From the NCBI GenBank assembly GCA_024276655.1, contig JAJRWU010000130.1, forward strand, positions 1-33,598: DNA of 33,598 nucleotides, read 5' to 3'. The stretch comes from Planctomycetota bacterium (lineage in GTDB: Bacteria; Planctomycetota; Planctomycetia; Pirellulales; Pirellulaceae). The notes under the pieces are model-generated. The model did not search any database, had not been told where the DNA came from, and was given only the letters and a program-made list of their open reading frames with translations. Below are positions 8,082 to 32,255 of this stretch, one piece after another. Each line of letters starts with the position of its first letter. The stretch's first letter is position 1. Position numbers and translations under genes: made by a program.

Positions 8082-8179
8082 GAATCGGTTCTGAAATAAA
8101 TTACCGGTTGTAGTTCAAAAAGCCCGGCATTTTCAAAATGCCGGGCTTTTAATTCGGTATGCAAATTCAGGACTATTCC
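8081..8179. repeat. 99-bp palindromic element, family A copy 1 (MITE/REPIN-like)
   Basis: Begins GGAATCGGTTCTGAAAT and ends AAATTCAGGACTATTCC, imperfect terminal inverted repeats, with the core hairpin at 8121-8150. The copy at 18895-18993, read on the other strand, has the same length and by eye differs at about 11 positions plus two one-base indels. It is flanked by CTAG on both sides (8078-8081 and 8180-8183), compatible with a short target duplication. It fills the whole space between the stop codons of two convergent genes and could also terminate both transcripts. Confidence 0.8.
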
Positions 8180-18894: not shown

Positions 18895-18993
18895 GGAACA
18901 GTCCCGAAATTACATACCGAATTAAAAGCCCGGCATTTTGAAAATGCCGGGCTTTTTTGAGCTACAACCGGGAACTTATTTCGGGACTGTTCC
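18895..18993. repeat. 99-bp palindromic element, family A copy 2 (MITE/REPIN-like)
   Basis: Starts and ends with a perfect 16-base terminal inverted repeat (GGAACAGTCCCGAAAT and its complement at 18978-18993) around the core hairpin at 18924-18956. In opposite orientation to the 8081 copy and of identical length. The arms are better preserved than in that copy. Its position 44 bases after the nuclease stop allows a secondary use as terminator. Confidence 0.85.
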
Positions 18994-31615: not shown

Positions 31616-31725
31616 TTACCATAATCACCCAGAGCCTGCATTGCAAGCAAACGGCGCGAATGCCAAGCCGCCTCGCCCACGCGGAATTTTCAGCGGCGTA
31701 GTAGGGTCCGCTATACGGATCGGAA

Positions 31726-31872
31726 TCACTCCCCAACGTTGCGATTGAGTTTGGAAATGGTGACGAGGTGTTCCCGGCCGCTCCCCCAATTCAATTCGTA
31801 AACGCCTTTTTCGACCCAAACGGTAAAGAAAAAGGTTCCTCCGGGAACATGAGCGCGGCGATCGTTGGGGAT
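31726..31872 (-). pseudogene. Remnant of a REP-associated tyrosine transposase (RAYT)
   Basis: The minus-strand translation contains IPNDRRAHVPGGTFFFTV, which matches the conserved N-terminus of RAYT/TnpA-REP proteins (usual form YRRaxvpGGtyFFTVV). After it the frame continues for about 35 codons without family likeness and stops; the HUH and catalytic Tyr motifs are absent. It is a fragment of about 18 recognisable residues in a protein normally about 150-250 long. RAYTs mobilise short palindromic repeats, of which the window has many. Confidence 0.65.
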
Positions 31873-32255
31873 TGGGCAGCGGTTTGTCTCATACGACCAC
31901 TTCGAAATACGCCTCGATGATCTCCATTGCAACACGGTGGGAATTGGTTTGCACTGTTGAAGTAGAACCTCGGTCCGCTACGTCGCTTTCAACAGGATTC
32001 TCCACCCCCATCCGGTATCCGTCAATCTTGGGCTATCGCAGACAGTCTCTTGGCCGAAAATGGACGCTACGATTGAAACTTGGGAAACTAATGACGGGTA
32101 ATACTCGCGTTGAGAGACACTTGCGCGATACTATCACAAGGGAGAGGGTGAACGGTTCGAAACCTGCGTTCATCGCTAAAGACCCCAAGATCATCCAGTA
32201 GCGAAAATAGCCGAATGAATTGGCGTCGCATTCTACGTGCAAAGGGAGCAGCCGA

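Follow-up and report, generated by a model that had tools for sequence, protein, structure and literature searches.

A RAYT remnant with REP ends, probably part of a multiplied and internally deleted unit

What a short piece of a REP-associated tyrosine transposase (RAYT) represents at this locus, and whether it is connected with the abundant palindromes of the same genome, is the question raised by this stretch of DNA. The window, i.e. the whole stretch that was analysed, is contig C49 (33,598 bases) of the 5.96-Mb draft genome G000. A minus-strand frame at 31935-31726 (69 aa) contains CPIPNDRRAHVPGGTFFFTV, in which the original prediction recognised the N-terminal motif of RAYTs; an intact paralogue was proposed as the source of two palindrome families, A and B. 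The fragment quite probably belongs to a RAYT unit (Delta) that is non-autonomous, has undergone an internal deletion and has been multiplied in this genus. This dispersed element has a length of 281 bp in the window, is delimited by the GTAG tetranucleotides of the left REP and of the right half REP, and is composed as follows:

31701 to 31981, minus strand: the Delta element as a whole; from repeat matches in G000 and in G001, its sole congener in the genome set, and from alignment
31701 to 31721, plus strand: REP-C following the RAYT remnant on its 3' side, GTAGGGTCCGCTATACGGATC, with two mismatches; from a pattern match
31726 to 31818, minus strand: RAYT C-terminus WVEKGVYELNWGSGREHLVTISKLNRNVGE and stop, in frame; from translation, alignment and BLASTP
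31819 to 31872, minus strand: RAYT N-terminus IPNDRRAHVPGGTFFFTV, residues 1-18, ATG replaced; from translation and BLASTP
31873 to 31971, minus strand: RAYT leader, resembling the interior of the short alpha elements; from repeat search and alignment, the leader copy at C26 being used in the shuffle test
31972 to 31981, minus strand: half REP-C GTAGCGGACC on the 5' side, lacking 11 bp of the palindrome; from sequence and alignment

The motif in the window is identical to the N-terminus of an intact 186-aa relative in 14 of 24 residues (BLASTP E 9e-8, single comparison). After FFFTV, the frame continues as the RAYT C-terminus (WVEKGVYELNWG..., 31818-31726), which aligns with a C-terminal wreck at C224 (75.8% over 33 residues) and also with the C-terminal part of the intact relative; a purely N-terminal fragment was therefore rejected. 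The window frame alone matched no Pfam or NCBIfam family, and the identification as RAYT thus rests on its relatives. The RAYT piece at C26 matched the NCBIfam family NF047646 with E 1.7e-17 and the piece at C224 with E 1.1e-12, both remaining, as fragments, under the family cut-off of 80 bits, and the intact relative L167 reached 178 bits. A chance match was rejected as well, because copies were found within G000 at C306 and C167 with E 1.6e-105 and 5.5e-92, respectively. The predicted N-terminal motif was thus confirmed by the identity to the intact relative and by the match of the C26 piece.

In total, 48 RAYT residues (residues 1-18 and the last approximately 30) are present in the window. 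In comparison to the intact 186-aa relative, approximately 139 internal residues (about 19-157 of 186) between FFFTV and HRWVEKG are missing. The HUH motif and the catalytic tyrosine fall inside the deleted stretch and the RAYT start has no ATG, which bears out the earlier view that the fragment is dead. Judged by its sequence, the window copy is a remnant and not a RAYT gene. Both RAYT ends share one frame in the window, as a small protein retained for a function of its own would have it, but such a protein is extremely improbable. The C-terminal part is in frame only because of one extra base at the junction, which is absent from the other five Delta copies described below; in the four copies that were translated (C306, C167, G001 C20 and one at G001 C31), the N-terminal part enters another frame after FFFTV. 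Furthermore, alignment of the six deleted copies revealed 7 extra bases near the RAYT start of the window copy. As the extra junction base is unique to the window copy, the 69-aa frame was rejected as a gene.

A repeat search with window positions 31690-32010 against the own genome detected near copies at C306:10000-10269 (90%) and C167:24433-24687 (88%), beside two pieces at C26, one at C224 and further short end matches. Alignment showed an identical deletion in six copies, namely C49, C306, C167, G001 C20 and two at G001 C31. The junction reads TTTACGGTTGGGTCGAAAAAGG in five of them, and the window copy deviates by a substitution and the extra base. The copy at G001 C20 is among the five; with 87% identity to the window copy in the element and 95-96% in the flanks it is the ortholog of the latter. 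The borders of the deletion have AC[C/G]GTT in common, which is visible in the wrecks at C26 and C224. Of these, the former retains the N-terminal half down to HLHTILN and the latter the C-terminal part; both represent other wrecks of the same RAYT gene.

The flanks of C49, C306 and C167 had nothing in common at E 1e-3 when up to 700 bases on either side were compared (249 for one side of C167), so that these copies occupy three clearly unrelated loci in G000. According to Blast, the similarity between non-orthologous copies stops at the REPs or about a dozen bp or less from them. These observations show that a RAYT gene bounded by REP-C lost approximately 139 codons, while its leader, both gene ends and the REP-C ends were retained, and that the same deletion occurs at three unrelated loci and in the congener.

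It is unlikely that Delta was spread among REP-rich intergenic regions through homologous recombination or gene conversion, without RAYT-driven transposition. Recombination between copies may happen, since two Delta copies of G001 bracket 1.9 kb where G000 has one (C306), and half REPs recur at several element ends. The copies are also old (87-92% identity to the window copy), and therefore copying by recombination may be possible. However, unrelated flanks at C49, C306 and C167 and a similarity ending near the REPs are to be expected if a bounded unit was inserted. As they belong to one locus, the two C31 copies of G001 may not be independent of each other; they enclose ORFs of 150 and 252 aa (L129 904-3353). 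No clean empty site for Delta or the alpha elements was found among ten sites tested with joined flanks in both congeners. The sole two-sided comparison was the alpha element at C306, where G001 carries another insert of 449 bp; C62 and C26 gave one-sided comparisons, and the other sites had no counterpart or were not resolved.

The ends of the unit are formed by REP-C (GTAGGGTCCGCTATGCGGACC), which consists of GTAG followed by GGTCCGC-TRT-GCGGACC. The original prediction that no matching palindrome flanks the remnant was wrong: GTAGGGTCCGCTATACGGATC at 31701-31721 lies 4 bp beyond the stop of the remnant frame, and the half REP-C at 31972-31981 lies on the other side. With at most one mismatch, REP-C was detected in 5 of 60 genomes (G000, 21 sites; G001, 13; G018, 46; G050, 2; G046, 1), and a reversed-pattern control for G000 and G001 gave 0 sites. 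Only this count was used, because at up to three mismatches G000 gives 37 sites versus 13 in the control. The Delta copies at C306 and G001 C31:22570 possess two full inverted REP-C. Delta is thus flanked by inverted GTAG REPs, of which the window copy retains one with two mismatches and one half.

Directly 5' of the tetranucleotide, AGCRAC occurs in 11 of 24 rows from G000 and 6 of 12 from G001, in comparison to 0 of 7 from G018 and 0 of 25 from other genomes. Half REPs (GTAGCGGACC, without 11 bp of the hairpin) are located at several element ends (window 31972-31981, L020, L021, L017, L162 and L163), and the left REP of the window locus is full-length in G000 and a half REP in the G001 ortholog. 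An 8-mer, ACGTTGCT / AGCGACGT, adjoins REP-C ends in tandem and spans the AGCRAC-GTAG boundary (L020 at about 130-215, L019 after 446, L017 at about 235-265). Additionally, the end of a repeated sequence (...CCTTCACAGGCGTA) directly adjoins REP-C at four sites (L023 1-120, L024 1-130, L025 455-584, L138 near 936-990), at which the REP has CTAG in place of GTAG; three of the four contigs terminate within about 130 bp of it. This end looks like that of an insertion element targeting REP-C; the body of the putative element was not found.

Intact relatives were sought with the 66-aa piece from C26 at E 1e-8 in 396 genomes of the order, which were drawn from a larger group, and matches occurred in 63 of them. 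Neither G000 nor G001 (assemblies 96% and 93% complete) yielded an intact RAYT of the fragment's kind at this threshold, G000 having only the C26 wreck and G001 no match, and hence a cognate RAYT in the same genome, as REPINs have, was not found for either. RAYT matches in G000 numbered four, two of them among the matches listed. The closest intact relatives are L196 (74% identity), L167 (73%) and L197 (72%). In all three, the gene is bordered on either side by GTAGGGTCCGCTGTGCGGACC or a variant of it, with the arms GGTCCGC/GCGGACC in L167 and L197 (the upstream palindrome of L197 being imperfect) and GGTCTGC/GCAGACC in L196. Of the 186 residues of L167, 169 were covered by an alignment with 4er8, a solved protein that bears the name TnpArep (E 3.1e-36; one solved sequence matched).

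Altogether, 35 relatives were examined, 30 of them full length. Strict GTAG hairpins were present on both sides in 18 of the 30 and on neither side in 5, and the hairpin density was 4.04/kb beside the gene (62 sites in 15.3 kb) versus 0.29/kb farther away (20 sites in 68.0 kb). That RAYTs accompany palindromes, as had been stated at the outset, is borne out by these relatives with GTAG-type palindromes on both sides. In G018 (99% complete), no cognate-RAYT relative was detected at E 1e-8 beside the 46 REP-C sites, which indicates a REP population without its RAYT; a RAYT relative with the same palindrome (L168) was found in G113, which belongs to the same genus as G018.

Families A and B are both abundant in G000 and G001, and an intact paralogue of the fragment's RAYT might on this ground be regarded as their common source. 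This is very unlikely, as REP-C, and not A or B, flanks the fragment's RAYT kind. Family A (AGCCCGGCNTTTTNAAAANGCCGGGCT, up to three mismatches) was found at 691 places in G000, 427 in G001, four in G024 and none in the other 57 of 60 genomes, i.e. in 3 of 60 genomes; with about one copy per 8.6 kb in G000, this palindrome is nearly confined to the genus. Seven of its eight copies in the window are intergenic with respect to ORFs of at least 100 aa that were called mechanically. In six of the eight, GTAG and CTAC are both absent from the roughly 15 nt around the foot, the copy at 8118 has GTAG a few bases off the foot and the copy at 18924 has CTAC a few bases off, so that these eight copies show no consistent GTAG foot as a GTAG REP has. 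The copy at 18924 is located inside a larger inverted repeat (GGAACAGTCCCGAAAT..., window 18895-18993). Family A was present in one of nine RAYT-like loci read in G000 and G001, at a distance of 1.1 kb from the gene. A, B and REP-C were all absent within 3.2-3.3 kb at the RAYT-like or Y1 genes C50:2046, C129:4886, C126:17012 and C94:19045 of G000, and no tie of family A to any RAYT was found in the RAYT loci examined.

Family B (GTACGATGGCCTTCCAAGGCCGTCG) occurs in 10 of 60 genomes, with 97 matches in G000 and 147 in G001, both strands counted. Inverted B-type palindromes are located on both sides of three RAYTs of 255-264 aa in G024 (C401 and C85) and G014 (C5). This RAYT kind gave nine matches, of which five were scanned: the three flanked by B, L243 with another palindrome and L241 with none. 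The one B-flanked RAYT that was scored reached 63.8 bits, below the cut-off of NF047646, and the kind was absent from G000, G001, G016, G006 and G018 at E 1e-10. Family B therefore flanks a RAYT different from the fragment's kind, in other genera.

The link between the fragment's RAYT and these families was to fall if genomes rich in the palindromes had no intact RAYT or if their RAYTs were flanked only by another repeat. For family A this is largely what was found, since its 691 and 427 copies coexist with no intact RAYT of the fragment's kind at E 1e-8, the remnants have REP-C at their flanks, and yet another palindrome flanks an intact RAYT of 180 aa that belongs to another kind (G001 C140:14488-14904, 114.9 bits). 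For family B a link to a RAYT does exist, though to another one. The fourth palindrome, GGCCCAGGTTCTTGAACCTGGGC, lies outside the C140 open frame by 26 and 23 bp (L130 384-405 and 995-1016), has two more copies within 2 kb and was not found in the window.

Beside Delta, seven short alpha elements were identified (C62, C168, C306, C28 and C50; G001 C120 and C35). Each has REP-C, complete or as a half, at one end and an inverted REP-C at the other, with some 80 bp between them; the total is about 110-145 bp, and there is no gene. Those at C28, C50 and C35 have an extra partial REP. The alpha interior resembles the RAYT leader of C26 (z 13.8 to 18.7 for the three of the seven that were tested, none of 2000 mononucleotide shuffles being as good). 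The interior of the one beta element tested (C199) did not match the leader (z 1.2; an equally good score was reached by 316 of 2000 shuffles), and thus not all short REPINs of the genus derive from this leader. The leaders of the intact relatives L196, L167, L197 and L168 are unlike that of the genus. Three elements in all were folded as single strands, with z values of -4.80 for the Delta copy C31:22570, -9.39 for the G001 alpha element C120 and -0.68 for the window copy, both REPs of which are damaged and which folds no better than shuffles. Ends of group II introns (RF00029, 58 bits) were detected near the contig starts of C168 and C115 (L021 52-132 and L234 52-132).

The multiplication of the internally deleted unit is most plausibly explained as follows. 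A RAYT unit would have lost its middle, its ends remaining usable, and the deleted unit would have been copied in trans by a sister RAYT of the same kind. This sister RAYT would since have been lost, or would lie outside the assemblies; that G000 and G001 yielded neither an intact gene of its kind nor a clean empty site speaks against such a history. By analogy with REPtrons, this RAYT would bind REP-C ends in single-stranded form and cleave close to GTAG; TnpA-REP enzymes are described as recognising the single-stranded REP with its GTAG foot and cutting at adjoining dinucleotides (PMC8266576). The alpha elements likely arose by further deletion to leader and REP ends. With both its ends decayed, the window copy has probably become immobile.

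It is possible, though somewhat less likely than not, that the RAYT unit (REP-gene-REP) itself was mobile in this genus and that REPINs were born by stepwise internal deletion, from the gene unit via Delta with both gene ends to alpha with the leader only. The similarity of the leaders alone gives no direction for this series, and its order is our proposal. Such a mobile unit, if true, would run counter to the literature, in which RAYTs are regarded as apparently single-copy genes that do not mobilise themselves (PMC3116915), and the stepwise series, if true, would display one origin of REPINs directly. For Bertels and Rainey, descent of REPINs from palindromes beside an ancestral IS200-like element is one possibility (PMC3116915), and an internally deleted RAYT that is multiplied and ends in REPs is an intermediate of the kind which this idea predicts. 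The genus offers a testable series in this respect, i.e. RAYT wreck, Delta and leader-only REPIN. In addition, REP populations (C, and also B) exist in genomes in which no intact cognate RAYT was found.

RAYTs, REPs, REPINs and pseudogenised RAYTs are already known, deletions being mentioned among the last (PMC3686654). No description of a multiplied, internally deleted RAYT was found in titles and abstract openings of mainly open-access literature, which was covered in part, and it thus represents an undescribed variant in the literature searched. Delta is similar to a MITE derived from an internally deleted insertion sequence in that the ends are kept, the transposase gene is broken and several copies exist. 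The ends of MITEs are DDE-type terminal inverted repeats, whereas those of Delta are REP hairpins of a Y1 HUH enzyme. With the REPtron, in which GTAG REPs lie on both sides of a RAYT or TnpA-REP gene (Nunvar 2010, PMC2817692; Di Nocera 2013, PMC3733652), it shares the RAYT sequence, the GTAG tetranucleotide and the short palindrome, and the intact relatives have REPs on both sides, which are inverted in several; unlike in a REPtron, the gene of Delta has no middle and is multicopy, and no intact gene of its kind was found in G000 or G001. The REPIN as described by Bertels and Rainey (2011, PMC3116915) likewise has two inverted REPs around a spacer and is non-autonomous, and the alpha elements fit this description. 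The hairpin formed by REPINs has a counterpart in the folds of the Delta copy C31:22570 and the alpha element C120, and none in that of the window copy. In most REP dimers the spacer is stated to measure 20-100 bp (PMC3733652); the spacer of Delta, in contrast to that of a REPIN, comprises approximately 240 bp and is recognisable as the leader and both ends of a RAYT gene.
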